The position numbers and the translations under genes are program-made. Below the pieces are notes generated by a model. That model ran no database searches and was not told where the DNA came from. It saw only the letters and a program-made list of their open reading frames with translations. A stretch of 36,402 nt of DNA from an uncultured bacterium (GTDB lineage: Bacteria > Fidelibacterota > Marinisomatia > Marinisomatales > UBA1611). Positions 148 to 36,402 of the stretch are shown piece by piece. The stretch covers positions 1 to 36,402 of the forward strand of contig CAJQGZ010000029.1 of the NCBI GenBank assembly GCA_905478065.1, given 5' to 3'. Every line of letters begins with the position of its first letter. Within the stretch, counting starts at the first letter, position 1.

Positions 148-219
<72 letters not shown>

Positions 220-225
220 GGAAAG

Positions 226-296
226 AGCGAGTGATGGGGATCGAACCCACATCACCAGCTTGGAAGGCTGGGGTTCTACCATTGAACTACACTCGC
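226..296 (-). tRNA. glyT: tRNA-Gly (anticodon UCC)
   Basis: The minus strand gives a 71-nt cloverleaf with acceptor stem GCGAGTG/CACTCGC, anticodon stem CCAGC/GCTGG with loop CTTCCAA (anticodon TCC), and T-arm GGGTTCGATCCC. The CCA end is not encoded. It lies 6 nt upstream of the tRNA-Thr(GGU) gene on the same strand. Confidence 0.96.
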
Positions 297-300
297 AAAG

Positions 301-383
301 TGGGGACAGAAGGATTCGAACCTCCGAAGGCATACGCCGGCAGATTTACAGTCTGCTCCCTTTGGCCGCTCGGGCATATCCCC
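301..383 (-). tRNA. tyrU: tRNA-Tyr (anticodon GUA)
   Basis: An 83-nt class II tRNA with a long variable arm, as expected for bacterial tRNA-Tyr. The acceptor stem is GGGGATA/TGTCCCC with one T-G wobble and discriminator A. The anticodon stem GCAGA/TCTGC carries loop CTGTAAA (anticodon GTA). The D-arm contains GCCCGAGCGGCC and the T-arm AGGTTCGAATCCT. No CCA is encoded. Confidence 0.96.
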
Positions 384-434
384 GACAAACTTAACTCATG
401 CATTATTCAAACCGTAAAAAAACGCAAACTTACG

Positions 435-507
435 AGCCACCGAGAGGACTCGAACCTCCGACCGACTGATTACAAATCAGTTGCTCTACCAGCTGAGCTA
501 CGGTGGC
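435..507 (-). tRNA. thrU: tRNA-Thr (anticodon UGU)
   Basis: The minus strand folds with acceptor stem GCCACCG/CGGTGGC, D-arm TAGCTCAGCTGGTAGAGCA, anticodon stem ACTGA/TCAGT with loop TTTGTAA (anticodon TGT) and T-arm GGAGGTTCGAGTCC. The discriminator is T and there is no encoded CCA. It is the first tRNA of the four-gene cluster, corresponding to thrU in E. coli. Confidence 0.95.
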
Positions 508-518
508 AATTCAATTCT

Positions 519-532
519 TTGATAATTATCAA
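519..532. repeat. 14-bp perfect palindrome in tRNA operon leader
   Basis: The sequence TTGATAATTATCAA is its own reverse complement. It sits 12 bp upstream of the first tRNA in the transcribed leader. It could be a protein-binding site, part of a processing stem, or a -10-like GATAAT element. Short AT-rich palindromes also arise by chance, so its function is open. Confidence 0.35.
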
Positions 533-620
533 TTAGCTACACTGATTCTTATGTTTAAAGACATAAACGGTACAATTTTATTATTAAAATAGACCTACAG
601 CCTCATAACTTACAGATAAG

Positions 621-3652: not shown

Positions 3653-6040
3653 TCAGTCTTTTATTATTTCTAAATAGGACTCATCAACAAGGACTTCTCT
3701 CGCTTTACTTCCAGTAAAAGGCCCAACAATACCCGACTGTTCCATTTCATCAATTAATCGTGCTGCTCTTGAATAACCTACTTTTAACCGTCGCTGTAAA
3801 AGGGATATTGAACCTTGTTGGTGCGTTACAACAAGAGCTATGGCATCATTAAATAATTCATCATTAGAACCTTCATCGCTACCTCCATATTCATTGTGGA
3901 GAGATTCGCGAACAGATGGCAGAATATTACTTTCAGATTTAGGCTGTTCAATAACATGCCCCATAATTGCTTCTATCTCTTCTAAGGTTAAAAATGCATT
4001 ATGCATTCTAAAAACATCAGAACTACCAGTTCCAAGGTGCAACATATCACCCCTGCCAATTAATTTATCTGCTCCAGGTTGGTCAATAATAGTTCTTGAA
4101 TCAATTTTACTAGCAACTTGGAATGCGATTCTTGAAGGAAAATTTGCTTTAATAACACCAGTAATGACATCGACTGAAGGTCTCTGCGTCGCAATAACTA
4201 AATGAATACCTACGGCCCTAGCTAACTGAGCAAGCCTTGCTATAGGAGCCTCAACATCTTTTGCAGATAACATCATTAAATCAGCTAACTCATCTATAAC
4301 GAGAACGATATAAGGCATAATTAACTGATCGGCTTTTTTCATCTTATTATTATATTCAGAAATATTTCTTACAACAGCCTCAGCAAGAACGTTATAACGT
4401 CTATCCATTTCCTTTTCAAGTGCCCTTAACGAAAGGATAGCATTGTCTACTGAGGTTACAATTGGCTCGTCAATATCCGCCATTTTTAATAAATGATAGC
4501 CTTCTAACTTTTTATATAAAGTCATTTCAACTTTTTTAGGGTCAATCATTACAAATTTTACTTCATCTGGGCTCGCATGGTAAAGAATGCTGCATATAAT
4601 AGTATTAATACATACAGATTTACCTGAACCAGTTGTACCAGCAATTAATAAGTGCGGCATTTTCCCTAAATCAAGAGTTGCAATTTCTCCAGATGTTGTT
4701 TTACCAATAGCTAACGTGAGCATTGAATCAGATTCAGCAAATTCAGGACTATTAACAACCGATTTAAAATAAACAGTTGCTGGATTCCGATTAGGTATTT
4801 CAATACCCACAGAAGACCTCCCAGGAATTGGTGCAATAACCCTAACACTACTAGCTTCCATAACTCTTGCTAAATCATCAGATAGCTGGACAAATTTATT
4901 TACTCTTACGCCTTCGGCAGGCTCAACTTCAAATAAGGTAATAACAGGGCCCGGATGGACATTGACAACTTTGCCTTCTACCCCATAAGTAGAAAGAGAC
5001 TGAGTTAAGTAATTTGCTCTTTCGACTAATTCATCTCTACTCAAAGAATCTGATATACTTACCGGGTCTATCAGCAAATCCGATGAAGGTAGTATATATT
5101 TACGTTTTGGTTTTTTTCTATCTTCGATATCATCAATATCAACCTCCGCGTTTTTTGCCATTTCTTCGATATTTAAATCTTCAGCTATTTTTTGAGCAAT
5201 ATCGTCCAACTCAGTTGAATGTTCCTCAGTTGAATGTTCCTCAGTTGAATGTTCCTCAGTTGAATGTTCCTCAGTTGAATGTTCCTCAGTTGAATGTTCC
5301 TCAGTTGAATGTTCCTCAGTTGAATGTTCCTCAGTTGAACTAAGTTCTAAAACATCTATAGATTCTTCAATTATTGATTTATTATTTACATCGTCAACTA
5401 AATTAATTTTAGATTTTAGTTCATTTGTATGATTTCTTTTTTCATTTTCTTTTGCAATTAATTCACGGTTTTCTAAATAATCATTCCACGTTGATAACAT
5501 TTTTTCTTTTAAAATCAATATTGGCTTATATAAATCAAGATCGAAATATGCTCTAACCAACATTACATAACCAGCTATGATGAATATTATACAACCATAA
5601 ACACTAAACATATCCAAAAAAAAATCAGCAAGCATGCCTGAAAAAAATCCAGAATAATAAAATTTAGAAGGCCCTAGACTTAAATATATTGAAGCCACCC
5701 CTACATTAATGGATAGCAGCAGCATAGTAAGCAAACCATAAAAAGAAAGCCTAAGGGGCTGCTTTTTGTCTTTTTTAGAAAAAAAGACCCATCCCCAATA
5801 AATCCCCAAAACAGGCATCGCTAATGCAACATAACCAAAACCAAGTTTGATTAATAAATGTGATACAATAACACCTAAAATACCCATAGGATTATTAATT
5901 TGAGCATCTGGACTTATAACTAATTCTTCGCTTGAATCATGTCCAATAAGGCTAACAACAATAAATGTAGAAACAGCCAAAATTAAAACACCAAGAATTT
6001 CAAGGCGTTTATGATTTTTATTGGAAGTTTTCTTAGGCAT
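3653..6040 (-). CDS. ftsK: DNA translocase FtsK/SpoIIIE
   Basis: A 795-aa septal DNA pump that resolves chromosome dimers and clears DNA from the division site. The N-terminus has four or five membrane helices (about residues 15-165). Next comes a charged linker containing eight STEEH pentapeptides (about 235-274), then the alpha/beta motor with Walker A GTTGSGKS (468-475) and Walker B VLVIDELADLMM. The C-terminal gamma winged helix (GSISLLQRRLKVGYSRAARLID) recognises oriented KOPS-type DNA motifs. Total length is normal for short-linker FtsK/SpoIIIE. It begins 61 bp after gcvT in an AT-rich spacer and is followed 5 bp later by lolA. The odd part is the linker repeat, listed separately. Confidence 0.95.
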   Translation of the reverse strand: MPKKTSNKNHKRLEILGVLILAVSTFIVVSLIGHDSSEELVISPDAQINNPMGILGVIVSHLLIKLGFGYVALAMPVLGIYWGWVFFSKKDKKQPLRLSFYGLLTMLLLSINVGVASIYLSLGPSKFYYSGFFSGMLADFFLDMFSVYGCIIFIIAGYVMLVRAYFDLDLYKPILILKEKMLSTWNDYLENRELIAKENEKRNHTNELKSKINLVDDVNNKSIIEESIDVLELSSTEEHSTEEHSTEEHSTEEHSTEEHSTEEHSTEEHSTEEHSTELDDIAQKIAEDLNIEEMAKNAEVDIDDIEDRKKPKRKYILPSSDLLIDPVSISDSLSRDELVERANYLTQSLSTYGVEGKVVNVHPGPVITLFEVEPAEGVRVNKFVQLSDDLARVMEASSVRVIAPIPGRSSVGIEIPNRNPATVYFKSVVNSPEFAESDSMLTLAIGKTTSGEIATLDLGKMPHLLIAGTTGSGKSVCINTIICSILYHASPDEVKFVMIDPKKVEMTLYKKLEGYHLLKMADIDEPIVTSVDNAILSLRALEKEMDRRYNVLAEAVVRNISEYNNKMKKADQLIMPYIVLVIDELADLMMLSAKDVEAPIARLAQLARAVGIHLVIATQRPSVDVITGVIKANFPSRIAFQVASKIDSRTIIDQPGADKLIGRGDMLHLGTGSSDVFRMHNAFLTLEEIEAIMGHVIEQPKSESNILPSVRESLHNEYGGSDEGSNDELFNDAIALVVTHQQGSISLLQRRLKVGYSRAARLIDEMEQSGIVGPFTGSKAREVLVDESYLEIIKD
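5221..5340 (-). repeat. 15-bp tandem repeat, 8 copies, inside ftsK
   Basis: Eight back-to-back copies of a 15-bp unit (plus strand gttcctcagttgaat). They are identical except for the last base of the final copy and are preceded by a partial copy at 5211-5220. In the ftsK frame each unit encodes STEEH, giving an acidic/His linker between the membrane domain and the motor. The unit is a multiple of three, so copy-number change would alter linker length without a frameshift. The near-perfect identity at synonymous positions implies recent expansion or homogenisation. Confidence 0.97.
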
Positions 6041-10213: not shown

Positions 10214-11934
10214 GTTTCATCAATTTTTTTAAGTATTTTAGAAATATTTTGGCTTACTATTTTCTTATCGTCAATCGATGCAAACCCATAAGACATTCTA
10301 TCGCAAATTTTTACTACTTCAATAAGCTCGTTTAATAGTTCTTTAGGTATAAAATCTTTAAGGAGGTCGCTGATAGACATAGTATCAAGGTTAGCATTGG
10401 AAAGTTGAAATCTATCTTTTAAAAAAACATAAATAATTTTTGAATTATCAAAAGAATCATCATAAGAATAATTTTCAATAGATCTAATAGCTTTTTTCAA
10501 TGCACTATTTTTTATTTTTCCAGGCAATCTATCTAGATTATAACCAATTACGTATTTAGCTAATAAAGGTGAAATTAAAATCAAGACACTTAATATGTAG
10601 ATATAAAAGGCATAAGAAAAGGAATGCGGAATTATTGGAGAGAACTGAACTTTACCCATGTGGATGTATTTAATATCTTTGCCAATCACTTCAATATCTC
10701 TCTTGGTAAGTCCATTATTTACTAAATAGTTCTTACTTAGTTTTTTAACAAAAACAGACTGTGGTTTTGATGTCAACCTTTGCCATTTTTCAAGTTTAGG
10801 ATTAAAATAAGTAAGTGCTATTGGAGGGATAGTTAATTTCCCTGGTAGCCTAGGAACCAAGATGTATTCCCATGTCATTTTACCAGAAAATTCATCTCTA
10901 AATACATTTTTCTCAAATCGCTCCTTGGGTGAAAATTGATCGATTTCGTCAGAAAATTTAATTTCAGGTAGAGTAAACAAACCCATATTACCAGTTCCAT
11001 TAATTGATATTTTAAATGTTATGGCTTCATTTACGATAGTCGAATCAACGTCAGTTTCAGTGAAAATTTTAAAACTCCCAACTCCACCAGTAAACCCACT
11101 AGGCCTTAGACCTGGATATTTTTTAATAGCCACTTTATTCTCCTGGGTCTTTAATATTTTAGTTTCGGTTTCTGTAAAAAAAGAGTCAAAAAAAGGATTG
11201 AAAAATGGGTCTCTATTGTTTCTTTTTTTATTTTTTTGTTTTTTCACTTTTACAGATAAAGGTTGTAAAACATGCTCTTTACCTGAAATAGGAAATAATG
11301 CTACCTTATATAAAGTACCCTCCTGATAGTTAACTCCGTTAAGAGAAATATTTTTAAACTTGATCTGATTTGGCCTAAAAATTTCTTCAGCCCAAAACCC
11401 TGCAAATTTCGGAATTTCAAATGGCTCAATTGAACACTCCACTTTCCTGTATATTTTATAAGTCAGTATAATTTGCTCTCCCAGATACACTTTATCTTTA
11501 TTTAATTCTGCTGAAATAAAAACGTCTAAGTCTTTCTTACTTAATTTAGATTTTTCCACCAGGATTATAATTTTATTTGTGGATATTTTTTCACCTCCAA
11601 TCGATATATTTAAAGAAGGTATTATTAACCTGCCTACTTTTTTTGGAGAAATCATCCAAGACATGATTTTTGAATTGGTCATTCGACCATTAATCCACTG
11701 CATAGTAGTTTGCTGACTCGGGCCACTAATTATATCAAAATCTTTAAAGATACTACTGGCATTGAGATCTCCAAACGAAATTGTACTTTCTAATTCAATT
11801 TTAAAATTTATAACATCGTCAAGAGTAACATTATTCTTATCAACAATTGCTTTAGCCTGAAAACCAAATATAAAAGACGATTTAAAAATTAATATAAAAC
11901 AAATTTTTATCATCTTATTACCAATCTTTTTCAT
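10207..11934 (-). CDS. batD: BatD-family membrane protein
   Basis: A 575-aa protein with a signal peptide (ICFILIFKSSFIFGFQA), a long beta-rich periplasmic region and one C-terminal membrane helix (around 452-475), followed by a cytoplasmic helical tail. BatD landmarks are visible: QAKAIVDKNNVTLDDVINFKI, the repeated Ig-like segment VYLGEQIILTYKIYRKVE, PFFNPFFDSFF, and a PRLPGKLTIPPIALTYFNP block near the end of the exported part. The ATG used overlaps the batC-like stop by 17 bp. A second in-frame ATG at 11913 would avoid the overlap and place the signal peptide at the N-terminus; both are plausible. Confidence 0.85.
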   Translation of the reverse strand: MKKIGNKMIKICFILIFKSSFIFGFQAKAIVDKNNVTLDDVINFKIELESTISFGDLNASSIFKDFDIISGPSQQTTMQWINGRMTNSKIMSWMISPKKVGRLIIPSLNISIGGEKISTNKIIILVEKSKLSKKDLDVFISAELNKDKVYLGEQIILTYKIYRKVECSIEPFEIPKFAGFWAEEIFRPNQIKFKNISLNGVNYQEGTLYKVALFPISGKEHVLQPLSVKVKKQKNKKRNNRDPFFNPFFDSFFTETETKILKTQENKVAIKKYPGLRPSGFTGGVGSFKIFTETDVDSTIVNEAITFKISINGTGNMGLFTLPEIKFSDEIDQFSPKERFEKNVFRDEFSGKMTWEYILVPRLPGKLTIPPIALTYFNPKLEKWQRLTSKPQSVFVKKLSKNYLVNNGLTKRDIEVIGKDIKYIHMGKVQFSPIIPHSFSYAFYIYILSVLILISPLLAKYVIGYNLDRLPGKIKNSALKKAIRSIENYSYDDSFDNSKIIYVFLKDRFQLSNANLDTMSISDLLKDFIPKELLNELIEVVKICDRMSYGFASIDDKKIVSQNISKILKKIDETC

Positions 11935-12715
11935 ATCTTAATATCTTTGATTTTAAAATTTTTTGTTTTTGATTAATCTCTTCTTGACCTTTAAGAGCAT
12001 TTAAAATAGCCTCTGCTTGAATCATCTGGTCAGATTTTTCTTTTTCAATATTATCAGCACTACTGCTACCCTCTTGGTCTTGATTCTCTTGCTGTTCTTG
12101 GCTACCCTCTTGGTCTTGATTCTCTTGCTGTTCTTGGCTACCCTCTTGATCTTGATTCTCTTGCTGTTCTTGGCTACCCTCTTGGTCTTGATTCTCTTGC
12201 TGTTCTTGGCTACCCTCTTGATCTTGATTCTCTTGCTGTTCTTGGCTACCCTCTTGATCTTGATTCTCTTGCTGTTCTTGGCTACCCTCTTGATCTTGAT
12301 TCTCTTGCTGTTCTTCATTTTTCATTTTTTTTAATATTTCATAATTGATTTTTGTATCAACATCACTTGGATTTAACTCTAAAGCTTTTTTATATAATTT
12401 CAAACTCTTACTTATTTCATCTTTATCCTGCAAAATTCGAGCAATATTATATAAAGCTTTGGATTGAATGATATCGTTATCTGATTTAGAAGCGTCTTCA
12501 AAGCTTTTCAAGGCAAGGTCGATGTTATCATTGTAATAAGCGCTTGAACCCAATCCCAATTCAGCAGCGGCATCACCTTTTCTCTTTTTGAGTACTTTTT
12601 TATAATATTCAATTGCTTCACTGTATTTTTTATCATTAAAAAGCTCTATTCCTTTATCTTGTGCAAAAGAAAAAGAAAAAAGAAAGGATAAAACATAAAT
12701 AGTTAATCTAGACAT
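11918..12715 (-). CDS. batC: BatC-like TPR protein with Gln/Glu-rich tandem repeat
   Basis: A 265-aa exported protein. I chose the ATG at 12715 because it gives a clean signal peptide (MSRLTIYVLSFLFSFSFA) 10 bp after batB; a longer open frame upstream merely overlaps batB. Residues 20-130 hold three TPR units (GIELFNDKKYSEAIEYYKKV, ELGLGSSAYYNDNIDLALKS, ALYNIARILQDKDEISKSLK). Residues 135-218 are seven copies of EQQENQDQEGSQ. The C-terminus (AEAILNALKGQEEINQK) resembles the BatC tail. Position between batB and batD and the TPR fold support BatC. The repeat is far more regular than the usual low-complexity tract of BatC proteins. Confidence 0.8.
   Translation of the reverse strand: MSRLTIYVLSFLFSFSFAQDKGIELFNDKKYSEAIEYYKKVLKKRKGDAAAELGLGSSAYYNDNIDLALKSFEDASKSDNDIIQSKALYNIARILQDKDEISKSLKLYKKALELNPSDVDTKINYEILKKMKNEEQQENQDQEGSQEQQENQDQEGSQEQQENQDQEGSQEQQENQDQEGSQEQQENQDQEGSQEQQENQDQEGSQEQQENQDQEGSSSADNIEKEKSDQMIQAEAILNALKGQEEINQKQKILKSKILRYEKDW
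12065..12316 (-). repeat. 36-bp tandem repeat, 7 copies, inside batC-like gene
   Basis: Seven head-to-tail 36-bp units encoding EQQENQDQEGSQ in the gene frame. Copies differ mainly at one synonymous base: the second Asp codon is GAC in the first, second and fourth units by plus-strand order and GAT in the others. The last base of the unit at the high-coordinate end also differs. Multiples of three preserve the frame. The repeat opens long shadow frames on both strands that are not genes. Confidence 0.97.
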
Positions 12716-12725
12716 TTTGATAAAC

Positions 12726-13718
12726 TTACAGTTTCCTTGTTGGTAATAGGAATGCCATAAAAAAGAACAAAAACGAAATAAATGCCAAAGGTTGAAAACG
12801 CTCTTCAAATTGAGAATATTCATGCGAATTAATTTGCCTCTTCTCCATTGCATCGATAACATTATTTAAATCCGAATAATTATCCCCTTCGTTTGAAAAG
12901 TGAAAAAAACGACCACCTCCAGCTAGTGCGATATCTTCAAGCATTTTTATATTAAGAATTGAATTTATAAGCTTACCATTTTTATCCCTTTTGTATTCAA
13001 TGTCATCGCTCTGTTTTTGTTTTATTGGTATCAAACTACCAATTTTAGAGCCAACCCCTATTGTATGAATTTCAACCCCTGCTTCATAAGCTTTTTTTGC
13101 CAAATTTATTGCGTTACCTTCATGGTCTTCACCATCAGTTACTAGAAGCATAACCTTATAATTATTTTGATCTTTTTTAACTGTAGTAATGGATAATTCC
13201 ATAGCAGAGCTAATAGAGGTACCCTGATTTGGAATCATTTCCGTATCAATTGCAGATAAAAACAATAATGCAGCCTCATAATCTGTTGTAAGAGGAAGAT
13301 ATAAATGACTAGTTCCCGCAAAAACTATTATCGAAACTCTATCTCCTTTTAATTTTTGAATTAGTTTACCAATTTCATATTTCGCTTTTTCTATCCTCGA
13401 CGGCTTAACGTCTGATGCATTCATACTTATGGATGTATCAAATGCGATAACTAAATCAACACCTTGCCTTTCAACTTTTTTCACTTTAGCTCCAAATTGA
13501 GGACCTGCTGTAGATAATATTAGACAAAAAATTCCAAATAAAATTAAATACCTAACTGTTTTTTGGTTTCTAAAGTTAATATTTTTGTAATTAATGTCTT
13601 TTATGTTTTGCTTAGCGTAAGGGAAAATATCTTTTTTAAAATTCGGGTATAATTCTAAAATAAATTGAACAATTAACGGAATCAGAAGTAAAAAAAGCCA
13701 AGGATTACTAAAATTCAT
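12726..13718 (-). CDS. batB: BatB-like von Willebrand factor A membrane protein
   Basis: A 330-aa protein from the ATG at 13718, which overlaps the batA stop by one base (TAATG); an upstream extension inside batA is not supported. It has N-terminal membrane helices (about 7-22 and 57-75), a VWA domain with MIDAS motif DTSIS (94-98), LPLTTDYEAALLFLS, VTDGEDHEG, and a C-terminal membrane helix. The layout is that of BatB, a membrane-anchored metal-dependent adhesion-type domain facing the periplasm. It is paralogous to batA next door. Confidence 0.88.
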   Translation of the reverse strand: MNFSNPWLFLLLIPLIVQFILELYPNFKKDIFPYAKQNIKDINYKNINFRNQKTVRYLILFGIFCLILSTAGPQFGAKVKKVERQGVDLVIAFDTSISMNASDVKPSRIEKAKYEIGKLIQKLKGDRVSIIVFAGTSHLYLPLTTDYEAALLFLSAIDTEMIPNQGTSISSAMELSITTVKKDQNNYKVMLLVTDGEDHEGNAINLAKKAYEAGVEIHTIGVGSKIGSLIPIKQKQSDDIEYKRDKNGKLINSILNIKMLEDIALAGGGRFFHFSNEGDNYSDLNNVIDAMEKRQINSHEYSQFEERFQPLAFISFLFFFMAFLLPTRKL

Positions 13719-28398: not shown

Positions 28399-30958
28399 TT
28401 AAAATACTCAAAGCCTGAATCGGAGTAATTTGATTTAAGTCCAAAGCTTCAATTTCATCTTTTATTTTGAGTACATCACTATCTAGTTCTAAATGTTTTG
28501 AAAAACCCACATTATCGCTAACCAGGTTATCAATAAGCTGATTATTATTTTCAAATTTATGAACTAAAATTTCTTTAGCTCTTGAGATGACAGATGACGG
28601 CAGACCTGCCATTTTTGCAACCTGGATACCATAACTTTTATCTCCAGACCCCTCAATGATTTTCCTGAGAAATATAATTTTATCATTGTACTCTTTTACC
28701 TCAACGTGATAATTCTTTAACCTTTCTAGCTGATCTTCAAGAACTGATAATTCATGATAATGTGTCGCGAATAATGTTCTTGCATTAATTTCATTATTCT
28801 CATGAAGATATTCAACTATGGCCCAAGCGATTGATAATCCATCAAACGTAGCTGTCCCTCTACCTACTTCATCAAATAAAATCAAACTACGCTCTGTTGC
28901 GTTATTTAATATATTAGCAGCCTCATTCATTTCTACTAAAAAAGTTGACTCCCCTCCGGCAAGATTATCACTAGCCCCCACTCTCGTAAATAGTTTATCA
29001 ACGATTCCAATATCTGCAGATTTTGCTGGTACAAAACTACCAATTTGAGCTAGCAAGACTATAATTCCCGCTTGCCTTAAAAAAGTAGATTTACCTGCCA
29101 TGTTTGGCCCTGTGATGAGATGGATTTGGCTAGTCTTTATGTCCATAAGTAAATCATTCGATATGAACTTTTGAGTTGAAGGCAATAAGTCTTCAATTAC
29201 AGGATGTCTGCCATTAACAATTTTTAGAATTGATTTTTCTTTTATATTTGGCCTTACAAATTTTTTCGAAATTGCTAAGTAAGCAAAACTTGATAGGACA
29301 TCAATATCATTAAAAAGAGATGCATTATTTTGAATTTCTAAAACTCCAGTTGATACAATATCAACAAGTTTTTGAAAGATTTCATTTTCTAATTCATAGA
29401 TGTAGCTTTCCGCGTTCAATACTTTTTCTTCATAGATTTTTAAATCTTCAGTAATATATCTTTCTGAATTAACTAATGTTTGCTTCCTTATATAATCGTC
29501 TGGAACTTTGTTTTGATGTGTCTTAGTAATTTCAATATAGTAACCAAAGACTTTATTAAAACTGACTTTTAAACTGGAGATATCTAGACGCAGTCTTTCA
29601 TCATGTTGAAATTTTTCTATCCAACTTTTACCATTATTTAATATGTTTCTATATTCGTCTAATTGATTATCTACTCCTGACCTTATAACATTTCCTTTTT
29701 TAATGTTTGCGGGACAATCTTCATTCAAGGTTTTATTTATTTCTATCTTGAGCTTTGTCAATCTTTTGTAGTTAATCGTATAATTATTCAGGCTTTTAAA
29801 TTCCCGAAAACGTTCGAATGATTTATCATAGATATCCAAGGTGTTGGACAATCCTGCCAATTCACGAGGTGTGCCGCTGCGCCTGCATATTTTCGAAATT
29901 ATTCTTTCTACATCTATAGTTTTTTTAAGATTTATTCGCAGTTCTTTTAATAAAAAATTTTCACAAAAAAATGTTTCTACAATTTCTAACCTATTTTCAA
30001 TATTCTTTTTAACAGCAAGAGGCCTTTGCAGCCACTGTACTAGCATCCTAGATCCGCCTGCTGTAAGAGTGTAATCGATACTATTAATTAGCGTTCCTTT
30101 AACGTTTTGGGATGATAAAGAATTAAATATTTCTAAATTTTTAATGGTAAATCCATCTAATCCCATAATACCAATATTTTGTATGGGACTAATCTTTTTT
30201 AGATGGCTAACGCTCATTGATAAATTATTTTTTAAGTATGTAAATAAACCACCAGCTGAAATAATGCCAATTGGGAAATTTTCGCATCCGAAACCTTTTA
30301 GAGATTTTACTTTGAAGTGGTCAATTAAATCACGGTAAGAATTATCATAATTAAAAGTCCAATCTTCGATACTAGTAACATGCGGATGAAGCCTTAAATA
30401 CCATTCTTCAGTATTAAATACATCTGACTTAGATATTACAACTTCACTAGGGTTGTACTTTGACAACAAATCAGATAATTCACTTAAGTGACATTCTCCT
30501 GTATAAAACTCTCCAGTGGACGTATCAATAACAGATAAGCCCGCTCTTTTTTTTTGTTTTATAATACACGCAATGAAATTATTTCTCTTTTGATTTAAAA
30601 CCTGTTCTGAGGTTATGGTACCAGGTGTAACAACTTCAATAACCTTTCTTTTAACAATACCTTTAACTTGACTCGGATCTTCAATCTGTTCACAAATAGC
30701 AACTTTATATCCACCCTTGACTAATTTAGGTAAATAGTTATCGAGAGCATGATAAGGGAAGCCCGCTAAATCAACATCCGCTGCTTTGCCATTCGATCTC
30801 TTGGTCAAAACAATTCCAAGCAATTCAGAAACTATAATAGCATCAGATGAAAAAGTTTCATAAAAATCACCCATTCTAAAAAGAAGAATTGAATCAGTAT
30901 AATTTGATTTTATCTTATCATATTGTTTCATCAAAGGAGTTTTAGAATTATTGCTCAA
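28370..30958 (-). CDS. mutS: DNA mismatch repair protein MutS
   Basis: About 862 aa from a TTG start at 30958 (protein begins MSNNSKTPLMKQY). I prefer it to the ATG at 31009 because that overlaps selB by 62 bp, while the TTG has an AAGGG about 10 bp upstream and an 11-bp overlap. MutS domain I contains LLFRMGDFYETF, the mismatch-reading F-x-E motif. The ATPase has Walker A TGPNMAGKST (about 615), ESTFLVEMNEAANIL and the Walker B region LILFDEVGRGTATFDG. The HATFH-type motif is FATHYHEL. It is a full-length MutS1 with a C-terminal clamp/tetramer tail. Confidence 0.95.
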   Translation of the reverse strand: MSNNSKTPLMKQYDKIKSNYTDSILLFRMGDFYETFSSDAIIVSELLGIVLTKRSNGKAADVDLAGFPYHALDNYLPKLVKGGYKVAICEQIEDPSQVKGIVKRKVIEVVTPGTITSEQVLNQKRNNFIACIIKQKKRAGLSVIDTSTGEFYTGECHLSELSDLLSKYNPSEVVISKSDVFNTEEWYLRLHPHVTSIEDWTFNYDNSYRDLIDHFKVKSLKGFGCENFPIGIISAGGLFTYLKNNLSMSVSHLKKISPIQNIGIMGLDGFTIKNLEIFNSLSSQNVKGTLINSIDYTLTAGGSRMLVQWLQRPLAVKKNIENRLEIVETFFCENFLLKELRINLKKTIDVERIISKICRRSGTPRELAGLSNTLDIYDKSFERFREFKSLNNYTINYKRLTKLKIEINKTLNEDCPANIKKGNVIRSGVDNQLDEYRNILNNGKSWIEKFQHDERLRLDISSLKVSFNKVFGYYIEITKTHQNKVPDDYIRKQTLVNSERYITEDLKIYEEKVLNAESYIYELENEIFQKLVDIVSTGVLEIQNNASLFNDIDVLSSFAYLAISKKFVRPNIKEKSILKIVNGRHPVIEDLLPSTQKFISNDLLMDIKTSQIHLITGPNMAGKSTFLRQAGIIVLLAQIGSFVPAKSADIGIVDKLFTRVGASDNLAGGESTFLVEMNEAANILNNATERSLILFDEVGRGTATFDGLSIAWAIVEYLHENNEINARTLFATHYHELSVLEDQLERLKNYHVEVKEYNDKIIFLRKIIEGSGDKSYGIQVAKMAGLPSSVISRAKEILVHKFENNNQLIDNLVSDNVGFSKHLELDSDVLKIKDEIEALDLNQITPIQALSILNDIKKKYNK

Positions 30959-32807
30959 AAAAATAAGGCCCTTTTTTCCTATTTGCTCCATTTCTGATAG
31001 TGTAACCATTTATATCAAAGTACTCTAGCATTGGAATCGCATTTTTTCGTGAAAGCATAGATATTTCTTTAAAACTCGAAACAGATAATAATTCTTGACC
31101 ACTAAAATAAATTTGCAATTTTGATATTATGGCACCAAAAGCATCAGCACTAGTCACAATATCCATATTAATAATAACTACTTTTTTTCTATCATTTAAC
31201 ATAAACACCAAATCTTTAACGTATTTTGGATTTAATTTTGATTTCTTTACTAATTCATTAATGGATATAATTTTCAGCGGGCTATTATTTATCAAGTTTT
31301 TTATATTATCAATGTCAATTGCTATTTTTTTATCAATTTTTAAATCTTGATTTTTAATTTTTATTTTACCGTTTTTAAAAGTTAATAAATCTTCATTTAC
31401 TAAATCATTGACAACATATTTAGCCCAATCAGAAGATAAATTCAAATTGAGTTTTAAATTATTCATTTCAACATAACTATGAAATAAATCATGATTAGTT
31501 TTTTTTTTAACATATTTAACCACCGATTGTTTCACTGAGTTTAAATCATCAAAAAAGTAAACTAAATCACTCTTTGTTATTTTTGCTTTTATTAGTTTTA
31601 TTTTTTTAAGTATTTCAACTTCAGATAGAAAATATTTTTCACTCCACTGCTTAACTGTTAGCGGCTTTTTTAATCTACGAGATATCATGTATTTAAACCT
31701 TGCTACTTTATCAACTGGTATTTCTCCAAGATTATCTTTTTTTATTCTTTCATTTGTATCAAGTACAACACCACTAGCAATTGTTTCCATTGGGGAGTAT
31801 GAACGAACCACGAATAACTCATCGAGTGTTACTCCACATTTTTTCTCTAATCTTAAAATTGCATTGCAAGTTTTGCCAGGTTCAATTTTTTTTATATGAA
31901 GATTAATTCTAGCTAAAATTTCAGCAGTGCCTAAATGAATTCTCACTCGCTGATTGTTTTGAATTGTCCAAAGCGTATGTCTGGACATAGTTAAGTTCAC
32001 TATTAAATAATTCGTTACTATTATCTTATCAATGGCAGATAAAATTGAGCCTCTTTTTAATACATTTATATCAACTTTTGATAGATTTAAAGCTGCCCTG
32101 TCACCAAATTTGACATTGGTAACTTCACCACCATGAGTTTGAACACCCCTAACTGTTGCTGTTATTTTCTCTGGTAATATTTCTATACTATCACCTTTTG
32201 ATATATTACCACTCTTAATAGTTCCTGTTACAATAGAACCATATCCTTTTTTATTAAACACTCTATCAACATACATTTTAAAAAATTTTGAGTTATCAAG
32301 AACATTTAATGACTGAGATATAGAAATGATAGAATTCTTTAATTCACCTATTCCTTTCTGAGATAAACTATCTACTTTAAAAATACGACTATTTTGAAAA
32401 ATAGTATCTTTTTGAATCTTTTTAATATCAGATATAACTAGGTCTATCCATTCGTTATCAACCCCATCAATTTTTGTTATTACAGTAATTCCGATTAGAA
32501 TAGATAAACTATTCAAAATATGGAGATGCTCTAAAGTTTGTGGCATTACACCATCATCAGCAGCTATTACTAATAAACCAATATGAATAGTTGACGATCC
32601 CGCCACCATATTTCTAATAAACCTTTGATGACCTGGGACATCGACAATGGTGATTTGCTCATTTAAATAAGCAAACCCAAGGTCTATTGTAATTCCTCTA
32701 CTTTTTTCTTGTAAAAGAGTATCTGTATTGGTTCCAGTAAGAGCTTCTACCAAAGATGTTTTACCATGATCAATATGCCCAGCAGTTCCAATAACAATTT
32801 GCTGCAT
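30948..32807 (-). CDS. selB: Selenocysteine-specific elongation factor SelB
   Basis: The 619-aa GTPase delivers selenocysteyl-tRNA to UGA codons marked by a SECIS hairpin. The G domain has GTAGHIDHGKTSLVEALTG, the switch region EKSRGITIDLGF, DVPGHQRFIRNM and VITKIDG. EF-Tu-like beta-barrels follow (GYGSIVTGTIKSGNISKGDS and GDRAALNLS). The C-terminal ~260 residues carry the winged-helix repeats that bind SECIS RNA, ending KEISMLSRKNAIPMLEYFD. The ATG lies 2 bp after selA. Confidence 0.95.
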   Translation of the reverse strand: MQQIVIGTAGHIDHGKTSLVEALTGTNTDTLLQEKSRGITIDLGFAYLNEQITIVDVPGHQRFIRNMVAGSSTIHIGLLVIAADDGVMPQTLEHLHILNSLSILIGITVITKIDGVDNEWIDLVISDIKKIQKDTIFQNSRIFKVDSLSQKGIGELKNSIISISQSLNVLDNSKFFKMYVDRVFNKKGYGSIVTGTIKSGNISKGDSIEILPEKITATVRGVQTHGGEVTNVKFGDRAALNLSKVDINVLKRGSILSAIDKIIVTNYLIVNLTMSRHTLWTIQNNQRVRIHLGTAEILARINLHIKKIEPGKTCNAILRLEKKCGVTLDELFVVRSYSPMETIASGVVLDTNERIKKDNLGEIPVDKVARFKYMISRRLKKPLTVKQWSEKYFLSEVEILKKIKLIKAKITKSDLVYFFDDLNSVKQSVVKYVKKKTNHDLFHSYVEMNNLKLNLNLSSDWAKYVVNDLVNEDLLTFKNGKIKIKNQDLKIDKKIAIDIDNIKNLINNSPLKIISINELVKKSKLNPKYVKDLVFMLNDRKKVVIINMDIVTSADAFGAIISKLQIYFSGQELLSVSSFKEISMLSRKNAIPMLEYFDINGYTIRNGANRKKGPYFFEQ

Positions 32808-32809
32808 AA

Positions 32810-34180
32810 TTAAACTTTATTTATAGCATCAATTATATGAAAACTTTGAGAAGGTAAAACAGCTTTAAGGTCTATGAAAAATGAATTTCTATTGATATAA
32901 CCTATAATTGGAACCTTGTATTGTTTAAATGATTTTGATAGAACATCAATGGACATGTCCTTAGGCGAAAATTTCAGAGTAACACTTTTAAGGTTTTTTT
33001 CAGGTAAAGAACCGCTTCCAGCCTCAACCATAGAATTCTCAATGGTCAGACCAAGAGTCCGAAGTTTATACTCCTGAACACTATTTATTATTTTTTCAGC
33101 CATTTTTTTTAAGGTTTTTCTATTTTTCGTCAATAACATTAAAGCGAGATTAGATTTTAAAAATCCATTTTTTTTATAACTACGAAGAATATCATCTAAA
33201 ATGGCAATTGTAATTTTATCACATCTTACCGTGCGATAGATTGAGTTTGACTTGATAATGTTTATTAAAATTTTTGTAGACAGTATTATTCCTGATTGCG
33301 GCCCTCCAAGCATTTTGTCCCCTGAAAAAAGTGTGATATCAGGACCTTTTTTTACTATTTCAGAAACTGGGATTTCAGAAGGAATACCAAACTTACTCAT
33401 ATCTATAAAAGAGCCACTACCTAAATCTGCCACTACAGGAATTTTATATTTCTTACCTATAGAAACTATATCTTCTAAAGGCACTTCTTTAGTGTAACCT
33501 TTCATGATATAATTACTTGTATGAACCCATAACAATAGTTTAGTATTATTAGAAATTTCTTTTTCATAATCTTCAAGATGTGTGCGGTTGGTAGATCCAA
33601 CCTCCTTTAAAATGCCACCTCCTTTTTTAATAATTTCAGATATTCTAAATGAACCACCAATTTCAACAATTTGGCCTCTTGAACAGATAACTTCAGCATT
33701 TTCTGATAAAGAATTAATAATTAATAAAAGAGCCGCAGCATTATTATTGACGACGACTGAATTTTCAGTTCCACAAATAGAGGCAATGTGCTTGTCAATG
33801 TGTGATTGACGGTCTCCCCTCATATTTTTTTCTAGATTAAACTCGAGATTTGAATAGCCATTAATTTTATCTGCAATATTTTTTAAATGTGAACCTGCGA
33901 ATGGAGCTCTCCCAAACCCCGTGTGCAGCACAATACCAGTGCCATTAATAATATTAACAAAAGATGATCTAGCTTTTTCCGTCACTGCAGTAACGATTTT
34001 TTTGATAACTACATCTTTTTCAAAATCATAATTCTCATTAATTATTTTTGATCTCAATTCATCTAATTCTTGATTAATCAAATCTTTTAAAAAGTTCTCA
34101 TGAACACCTAAATCGTTATCAATCGAATTTATAATCGATGTAACTGACGGCATAGACTTGAATTTAGTGTTTTTTGTCAT
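32810..34180 (-). CDS. selA: L-seryl-tRNA(Sec) selenium transferase
   Basis: The 456-aa PLP enzyme converts seryl-tRNA(Sec) to selenocysteyl-tRNA(Sec) using selenophosphate. Diagnostic blocks are INGTGIVLHTGFGRAPF, VVVNNNAAALLLI, SRGQIVEIGGSFRI, EVGSTNRTHLEDY, VVADLGSGSFID and the PLP-lysine motif FSGDKMLGGPQSG (K289). The length is standard. It follows a terminator downstream of rplS, so it should begin its own transcription unit with selB and mutS. No tRNA-Sec and no selD occur in the window. Confidence 0.96.
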   Translation of the reverse strand: MTKNTKFKSMPSVTSIINSIDNDLGVHENFLKDLINQELDELRSKIINENYDFEKDVVIKKIVTAVTEKARSSFVNIINGTGIVLHTGFGRAPFAGSHLKNIADKINGYSNLEFNLEKNMRGDRQSHIDKHIASICGTENSVVVNNNAAALLLIINSLSENAEVICSRGQIVEIGGSFRISEIIKKGGGILKEVGSTNRTHLEDYEKEISNNTKLLLWVHTSNYIMKGYTKEVPLEDIVSIGKKYKIPVVADLGSGSFIDMSKFGIPSEIPVSEIVKKGPDITLFSGDKMLGGPQSGIILSTKILINIIKSNSIYRTVRCDKITIAILDDILRSYKKNGFLKSNLALMLLTKNRKTLKKMAEKIINSVQEYKLRTLGLTIENSMVEAGSGSLPEKNLKSVTLKFSPKDMSIDVLSKSFKQYKVPIIGYINRNSFFIDLKAVLPSQSFHIIDAINKV

Positions 34181-34277: not shown

Positions 34278-34625
34278 TTATCGTTTCTCTTTAATTCTCG
34301 TTCCTTTGCTTCCAGAAATGTCTCTGAGGTAATTAAGTTTCGCTCTCCTAACTTTACCTTTCCTTTTGACATCAATATTAGAAATCATTGGAGAGTGTAA
34401 TGGGAAGATTCTTTCAACACCAATTCCATTAGAGATTTTTCTTACGGTGAATGTTGCATCTAAACTTTTTCCTGCTCTTCTTCCTATAACAACACCTTCA
34501 AAATTCTGAACTCGTTCTTTATTGCCTTCACGAACCAAAACACTTACAATAAGGGTGTCTCCTGTATCAAATTCTGGGATATCGTCTTTTAAATATTCTT
34601 TAGTTGCATCCTGCACTTTATTCAT
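34278..34625 (-). CDS. rplS: Ribosomal protein L19 (bL19)
   Basis: A 115-aa large-subunit protein at the 30S-50S interface. Signatures are [60 protein letters not shown] and the closing [14 protein letters not shown]. The length is typical. Its ATG overlaps the trmD stop by 8 bp, and the gene is followed by the hairpin terminators. Confidence 0.97.
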
Positions 34626-35346
34626 GATTGAACTCCATATGTTTAATTGATTTATTATATTTTTCCCAGATGTCTGGACGTTTTTGTTTTGTAAGAACCT
34701 CGGATTTATTTTTTCTCCAAAGTTTTATTTTCTCATGATGCCCTTCAAGAAGGACACCCGGTACAGTTAAGCCTTCAACTGTTCTTGGCTTTGTATAATG
34801 TGGATAATCTAAAAGCTCATTTGAGAAGCTATCAGTTCTAGCAGAATTAATATTATTTAATGTCCCCGGACTGAGCCTGATTATACTATCAATTATAACC
34901 ATGCTACTTAGTTCACCATTCGAGACAATATAATCACCAATGGAATATTCATGAGTGACATATTTATCAATAACTCTCTGATCGACACCCTTATATCGAC
35001 CACATATAAAAATAAAATTTTTGATATTAACGTTCTTTTCAGCTTGCTCTTGATTCCACTGCCTGCCATGAGGAGTTGGATAAACTATATTTGTATTTTC
35101 AATAGATGATGACATCAAATCAAATGAATGTTCAATTGATCGCATTAGAGGTTCCGCCATCAAAACCATACCATCGCCTCCACCGAAAGGCGTATCATCT
35201 ATTTGTTTATAATCATTATCAGCGAAGTCTCTTATATCAATTAAATGAAAGTCAACATGCTCTCCACTAACTGCCTTTCGAAGTATAGTTGAATCGATGC
35301 AACTTTTTATCATCTTAGGGGCCGAAGTAATGACAGTTATTTTCAT
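34618..35346 (-). CDS. trmD: tRNA (guanine37-N1)-methyltransferase TrmD
   Basis: A 242-aa SPOUT methyltransferase forming m1G37, which prevents frameshifting. It has [21 protein letters not shown], the [15 protein letters not shown] block, and the trefoil-knot SAM site [20 protein letters not shown] followed by RLSPGTL. The C-terminal domain includes [24 protein letters not shown]. Its ATG forms an ATGA overlap with the rimM stop (35343-35346). Confidence 0.97.
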
Positions 35347-35849
35347 AATTCTAATAAACCGTCAATATCGGCAATTATAATTTTTTTATTATCTACATCC
35401 AATCTTTTAATCACTTCACTAATTATAGGAATAAGTATCTCTTTTTCATCTTTAAGTACAACATAGACATCATTTGCAGGGAGCCACATAACATCCTTAA
35501 GAACTCCTGCTTTTCTGCCAGATTCAGTTTCTAAATCAAAGCCAATTATTTTTTCAGAGATAAGATTTATTTCATCATCTTTATCTGCTTTAATGTAAAT
35601 GGTCTTACCTACTAATCTATCAGCTTGATGGAGAGAATCAACACCTTGGAACTTAAATCTCATTTTTTTACCAAGACCAATAGTGCTCTCAAGTTTAATA
35701 TGAGATAGTTCTTCATTTTTGACACCAATATGCAAAGATTTATTTATTATATAATCGACACTATATCTCGAATAAGGCCTTAATCTAACTTCACCTTTAA
35801 ATCCAGATGATGTAGTAATTTTTGCTATGGCATGTTTTTGATCAAACAT
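35343..35849 (-). CDS. rimM: Ribosome maturation factor RimM
   Basis: A 168-aa 16S rRNA maturation factor that binds S19 during 30S assembly. The N-terminal barrel has AIAKITTSSGFKGEVRLRPYS and the C-terminal PRC-barrel contains VLKDVMWLPANDVYVV and EILIPIISEVIKRLD. The length is typical. It begins 8 bp after khpA. Confidence 0.93.
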   Translation of the reverse strand: MFDQKHAIAKITTSSGFKGEVRLRPYSRYSVDYIINKSLHIGVKNEELSHIKLESTIGLGKKMRFKFQGVDSLHQADRLVGKTIYIKADKDDEINLISEKIIGFDLETESGRKAGVLKDVMWLPANDVYVVLKDEKEILIPIISEVIKRLDVDNKKIIIADIDGLLEL

Positions 35850-35857
35850 AACAAATT

Positions 35858-36091
35858 TTAATCTATGACGTCCAATCTAGCTCTTTTGCCACCTTGCTTT
35901 GCATTAACGGCAAATACTATCGTTCTGAGCGCAGAAATATTTCGACCTTGCTTACCAATTACTTTACCGTAATCACCTTCGCCAACAGTTAGTTCATAAA
36001 TTAGTCGCTGCTCAGTTTCAACTATATTAACCTTTACCTCATCAGGCTTATCGACAAGAAGTCTAACAGCAATCTCTATAAATTCTAACAT
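35858..36091 (-). CDS. khpA: KH-domain RNA-binding protein KhpA
   Basis: A 77-aa protein made of a single type II KH domain, with the RNA-contacting GxxG loop as GKQG inside DYGKVIGKQGRNISALRTI. The start MLEFIEIAVRLLVDKPDEV is typical. A strong Shine-Dalgarno AAGGAGT (36103-36097, minus strand) lies about 6 bp before the ATG. The place between rpsP and rimM is the conserved one. KhpA relatives bind RNA with KhpB in other bacteria. Confidence 0.93.
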   Translation of the reverse strand: MLEFIEIAVRLLVDKPDEVKVNIVETEQRLIYELTVGEGDYGKVIGKQGRNISALRTIVFAVNAKQGGKRARLDVID

Positions 36092-36106: not shown

Positions 36107-36402
36107 TTATTTCTTTTCAGATTCATCTTTCTTCTTTGGAGTCTTCGCAGGTTCTTCCTTCGCAGGTTCTTCCTTCGCAGGTTCTTCCTTCGCAGGTTCT
36201 TCCTTCGCAGGTTCTTCCTTCACAGGTTCTTCCTTCACAGGTTCTTCCTTCACAGGTTCTTCCTTCACAGGTTCTTCCTTCGCAGGTTCTTCCTTCACAG
36301 GTTCTTCCTTCACAGGTTCTTCCTTCACAGGTTCTTCCTTCACAGGTTCTTCCTTCACAGGTTCTTCCTTCACAGGTTCTTCCTTCACAGGTTCTTCCTT
36401 CA
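36107..36402 (-). CDS. rpsP: C-terminal part of a gene with KEEPV/KEEPA repeat tail, probably ribosomal protein S16
   Basis: Only the 3' end is in the window; the coding frame is open to the edge and no start is visible. What is seen is 17 pentapeptides KEEP(V/A) followed by KTPKKKDESEKK and a stop. No S16 core is visible, so the name rests on context: khpA, rimM, trmD and rplS follow in the order of the rpsP operon, and FCB-type S16 proteins often carry charged or Ala-rich C-terminal extensions. A GTG inside the repeat is only a Val codon, not a start. Another repeat-tailed protein cannot be excluded. Confidence 0.65.
   Translation of the reverse strand, partial: KEEPVKEEPVKEEPVKEEPVKEEPVKEEPVKEEPVKEEPAKEEPVKEEPVKEEPVKEEPVKEEPAKEEPAKEEPAKEEPAKEEPAKTPKKKDESEKK
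36146..36402 (-). repeat. 15-bp tandem repeat, about 17 copies, at window edge
   Basis: Tandem units of 15 bp (plus strand aggttcttccttcac or with cgc at the end) encode KEEPV or KEEPA depending on a single T/C difference in the Val/Ala codon (GTG or GCG). In translation order the visible pattern is seven V, one A, four V, then five A. The repeat continues to the window edge and probably beyond. Except for that alternating base, copies are identical. Confidence 0.97.

Follow-up and report, generated by a model that had tools for sequence, protein, structure and literature searches.

In the actinobacteria Mycobacterium smegmatis and Cutibacterium acnes, the extended small-subunit ribosomal protein bS16 contacts uS4, and in C. 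acnes the extension has been proposed to replace a short helix 17 (h17) of 16S rRNA (PMC5876184, PMC6133939, PMC10085706). Low-complexity regions were reported in 2019 in more than 100 bacterial S16 orthologs from different genera, 157 of the 187 regions consisting mostly of Ala and Glu (PMC6821194). Long forms also occur in Bacteroidota, where bS16 is 188 aa in Flavobacterium johnsoniae (7JIL) and 192 aa in Porphyromonas gingivalis (9I5V), with 85 and 97–118 residues, respectively, present in the models. Here we describe a tandem array at the end of contig CAJQGZ010000029.1, a stretch of 36,402 bp referred to below as the window, which belongs to a fragmented metagenome-assembled genome (MAG; 146 contigs, 82% complete). 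Comparison with sister species supported the assignment of this array to the C-terminal tail of bS16, the product of rpsP, in a bacterium of the Neomarinimicrobiota (SAR406). Low-complexity S16 tails are already known and the window adds one more, unusually repetitive example: it shares the low-complexity tail with the orthologs of the 2019 survey, but here the DNA of the region consists of K-E-E-P-V/A units in nearly perfect tandem repetition. The array is an especially regular case, and a literature search on ribosomal proteins and tandem repeats in Marinimicrobia yielded no earlier account of such a tail from this phylum.

Tandem Repeats Finder (TRF) located one array at 36,143–36,402 with a period of 15 bp, 17.3 copies, 98% matches, and a score of 478. 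Counting in frame on the minus strand gave 17 complete units at 36,146–36,400, 11 of them AAGGAAGAACCTGTG (KEEPV) and six AAGGAAGAACCTGCG (KEEPA), the only base that varies among the units being the one that distinguishes GTG from GCG. Since the units differ at this single position, the array appears to be recent. Both the copy number of at least 17 and the two unit types noted in the initial annotation were thus confirmed, and so was its description of the units as arranged in blocks, while the Val and Ala units do not alternate strictly, as its title had it, the order from the N- to the C-terminal side being VVVVVVVAVVVVAAAAA, that is, V7 A1 V4 A5. The array is followed by the non-repeat end KTPKKKDESEKK (36,107–36,145, minus strand) with the stop codon at 36,107. 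The whole visible part of the gene, the 3′ portion encoding the C-terminal tail (36,107–36,402, minus strand), consists of 97 codons plus the stop, and the encoded 97 aa carry a net charge of −14. As the reading frame remains open and runs off the contig end inside the array, 17 units represent a lower limit. Such an array lies far outside what chance would produce, because no tandem repeat scored above 71 in 153.7 kb sampled from other parts of this genome, these sampled stretches being the source of the repeat background. The starts of 32 other contigs also lacked a strong array, and on these grounds a general abundance of minisatellites in the genome was rejected.

The array lies at the rpsP position of the gene order ffh-rpsP-khpA-rimM-trmD-rplS, in which khpA, rimM, trmD, and rplS of the window were identified by Pfam matches. 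The named close relatives of the khpA product are mostly proteins from Candidatus Neomarinimicrobiota (Marinimicrobia/SAR406) MAGs. In a sister species (locus L063 of genome G002) the order is ffh-rpsP-khpA-rimM-trmD-rplS-selA-selB, and its DNA is 93.5% identical to that of the window over 3,383 bp, from the array into selA, without a gap. In the rpsP gene of L063 the S16 core continues in frame into ...NAESKEEPAKEEPAKEEPAKTPKKKDESEKK, and the last 12 residues of the protein are the same as in the window. The in-frame transition from S16 core to KEEPx-type units, uninterrupted by a stop or frameshift, was seen in both same-genus relatives (G002/L063 and G001/L064). The number of such units at this one site is approximately three in G002, approximately 10 in G001, and at least 17 in the window. 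The attachment of the array to S16, which had been proposed from synteny, is therefore supported by the sister species. A finding that weighs against this assignment, made as it was via relatives, is that the assembly of this MAG contains no match to the S16 core (PF00886). A search of the same MAG for ffh returned a single SRP54-type match, a 299-aa FtsY-like gene and not Ffh; since neither the S16 core nor Ffh was found, the contig that should contain ffh together with the beginning of rpsP is missing from the bin, and the core was probably lost through an assembly break in the array.

The comparison was extended to the phylum by a Pfam S16 search covering 175 Neomarinimicrobiota genomes, 152 of which gave a match. 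Among the matches listed, 150 S16 open frames ranged from 111 to 466 aa (median 215 aa) and none was 100 aa or shorter, and the 72 distinct complete proteins were all 138–461 aa long. In other phyla, 25 of the 26 proteins sampled measured 80–99 aa, approximately 81 aa in most of these phyla, and the sequences of KSB1 and Calditrichota were also tailed. The expectation that a tail of this kind would be unusual was consequently not supported, as every member of the phylum sample has one, besides the low-complexity S16 tails from over 100 bacterial genera (PMC6821194). Of the 84 distinct tails, 38 contained arrays detected by TRF, versus none of the 84 cores, and all 81 reported periods were divisible by three. 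Because tail arrays recur with units that are unrelated between genera (18 bp × 16, 54 bp × 6, 159 bp × 3, and others), the array of the window is, as judged from these sequences, one of many independent expansions. Contigs of other species likewise begin or end within the S16 tail (L010, L042, L098, and L099), suggesting contig breaks inside the tail as the reason why some MAGs of the phylum lack rpsP or carry only a part of it. What looked odd at this contig end is in this way explained as a known trait in an extreme but otherwise ordinary form.

Alignment of the Neomarinimicrobiota proteins revealed three zones of conservation: the core (residues 1–80), a conserved segment at approximately 81–105, and a variable tail with an entropy of about 2.6 bits per column. 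The consensus of residues 81–105 is WHL..QGLDE..IEKEM.KW, and its conservation about equals that of the C-terminal half of the core, while no conserved motif was found past approximately residue 110. AlphaFold2 modeling with 30 sequences predicted helices at 79–88 and 92–127, mostly with high confidence; the predicted local distance difference test score was about 90 for the core and the proximal helices and fell to 40–48 from residue 131, with no structure past residue 128. Charged and other disorder-promoting residues dominate the tail, and aromatic residues and cysteine are nearly absent. In the 72 complete proteins, 33–356 aa follow residue 105, with a median net charge of −21.5 (range −133 to +4), only three tails being net-positive. 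The alignment and the model show bS16 of this phylum as an approximately 80-aa core, a conserved segment of two predicted helices (79–127), and a predicted disordered, usually net-acidic tail. The comparison across the phylum thereby shows where the conserved structure of bS16 stops and free drift begins.

This layout corresponds to the extended bS16 of the Fibrobacteres–Chlorobi–Bacteroidetes (FCB) type, a helical segment followed by an A/E/K/P-rich low-complexity tail, where the helix is predicted from the relatives and the window holds the tail only. The family profile of the Neomarinimicrobiota aligned over nearly the full length of the F. johnsoniae and P. gingivalis proteins (E values of 8e-36 and 1e-40). 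The core, the conserved post-core segment, and the A/E/K-rich tail are shared with the Bacteroidota proteins, from whose models most of the tail is absent. In contrast to the window, the aligned tail of P. gingivalis is of low complexity and has no perfect short tandem array. The actinobacterial proteins also extend past the core, there by approximately 60–75 aa that are partly disordered. They differ in that their ordered part touches uS4 and coincides, in C. acnes, with a short h17, whereas h17 is not short here and the tail is an acidic repeat.

The tail of this species arose through successive duplications of a single 15-bp unit. Considering these results, we think it likely that the 30S subunit provides the docking site of the conserved helices and that the distal tail, a charged appendage exposed to solvent, drifts in length as its repeats slip. 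By analogy with actinobacterial ribosomes, the conserved helical segment may dock on the 30S body, with uS4 as a possible contact, and the distal K/E/P part would remain unstructured in the solvent as a charged entropic appendage for which no sequence-specific contact is needed. Replication slippage or unequal recombination could then let the copy number drift while the frame is preserved, since only the composition and the presence of the tail would matter. Several points speak against this interpretation. The docking on uS4 is drawn from analogy only, and the rationale offered for C. acnes, a short h17, fails here. Furthermore, the tail is kept in every member, which could mean a specific distal function beyond drift, and the 17 units of the window give only a lower bound on the copy number.

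Such a distal function is the content of an alternative that we consider unlikely, according to which the tail is a flexible acidic arm that attracts a partner or keeps it away (an assembly factor, an mRNA or rRNA, or a second ribosome), the repeat number tuning its length. The tail is never absent from the 72 complete proteins and is nearly always net acidic, bS16 takes part in 30S assembly (PMC10931766), and in both M. smegmatis and C. acnes the extended bS16 meets uS4 close to the side where mRNA enters, all of which would fit a functional arm. Nevertheless, the lack of a conserved motif beyond approximately residue 110, the wide variation in sequence, length, and charge after residue 105, and the absence of most of the tail from the Bacteroidota models argue against it. 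A bolder proposal holds that this essential 30S protein bears a hypervariable acidic tail throughout the phylum, which acts as a minisatellite-tuned arm affecting 30S assembly or ribosome–ribosome and ribosome–mRNA encounters; we regard it as quite doubtful, but if it were true, the ribosomes of close Neomarinimicrobiota relatives would differ in a tunable charged arm.

It is very improbable that, by analogy with C. acnes, the proximal helical extension forms a bridge to uS4 that compensates for a short h17, with the array merely a tail on it. The conserved helices do come after the core as this explanation would have it, but the V3/h17 interval is not short, measuring 152–159 nt in this genome and its relatives (158 nt in this genome) compared with 157 nt in Escherichia coli. 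A pattern search of the 16S V3 region across 61 relatives gave no hit for a short h17, and compensation of the C. acnes type was dropped after the direct measurement of V3. Finally, although the contig ends within the array, the MAG is without an S16 core, and three frames are open owing to the 15-bp unit, it is hardly conceivable that the array is part of some other protein, an assembly chimera, or a repeat read out of frame at the contig end, given the gapless alignment to L063, whose same frame enters a full S16 core, and the identical last 12 residues.

The gene next to rpsP is khpA (35,858–36,091, minus strand; PF13083), encoding a KH-domain RNA-binding protein and preceded by the Shine–Dalgarno-like stretch aaaggagtaagtt. 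It is followed on the same strand by rimM (35,343–35,849; PF01782 and PF24986), trmD (34,618–35,346; PF01746), and rplS, the gene of bL19 (34,278–34,625; PF01245). Directly after rplS, selA (PF03841) and the gene of a SelB-like elongation factor occupy 30,948–34,180, in the same order as in the sister species L063, and because of this pair the lineage probably makes selenoproteins.

Two other in-frame arrays were observed in the window. The gene of an FtsK/SpoIIIE DNA translocase (3,653–6,040, minus strand) contains a STEEH array in its linker at 5,210–5,339 (15 bp × 8.7, 100% identical), and the linkers of the sisters G001 and G002 have TEEP/TEEH arrays where the contigs also break. A tetratricopeptide repeat protein gene (11,918–12,862, minus strand) includes a 36-bp × 7 array (QEGSQEQQENQD) at 12,065–12,315, which has approximately four to five copies in G001; a G002 contig starts inside it, and in G004 its place is taken by an unrelated DES repeat. 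Three strong coding minisatellites are therefore found within 31 kb (5,210–36,402), each within a low-complexity segment rich in Glu or in Gln and Glu, and no array of similar score was present in the 153.7 kb sampled elsewhere in the genome. At the opposite end of the window, a 121-aa open reading frame at 171–536 (plus strand) is probably not a gene, and it lies antisense to four tRNA genes on the minus strand at 147–507: Thr-GGT, Gly-TCC, Tyr-GTA, and Thr-TGT.
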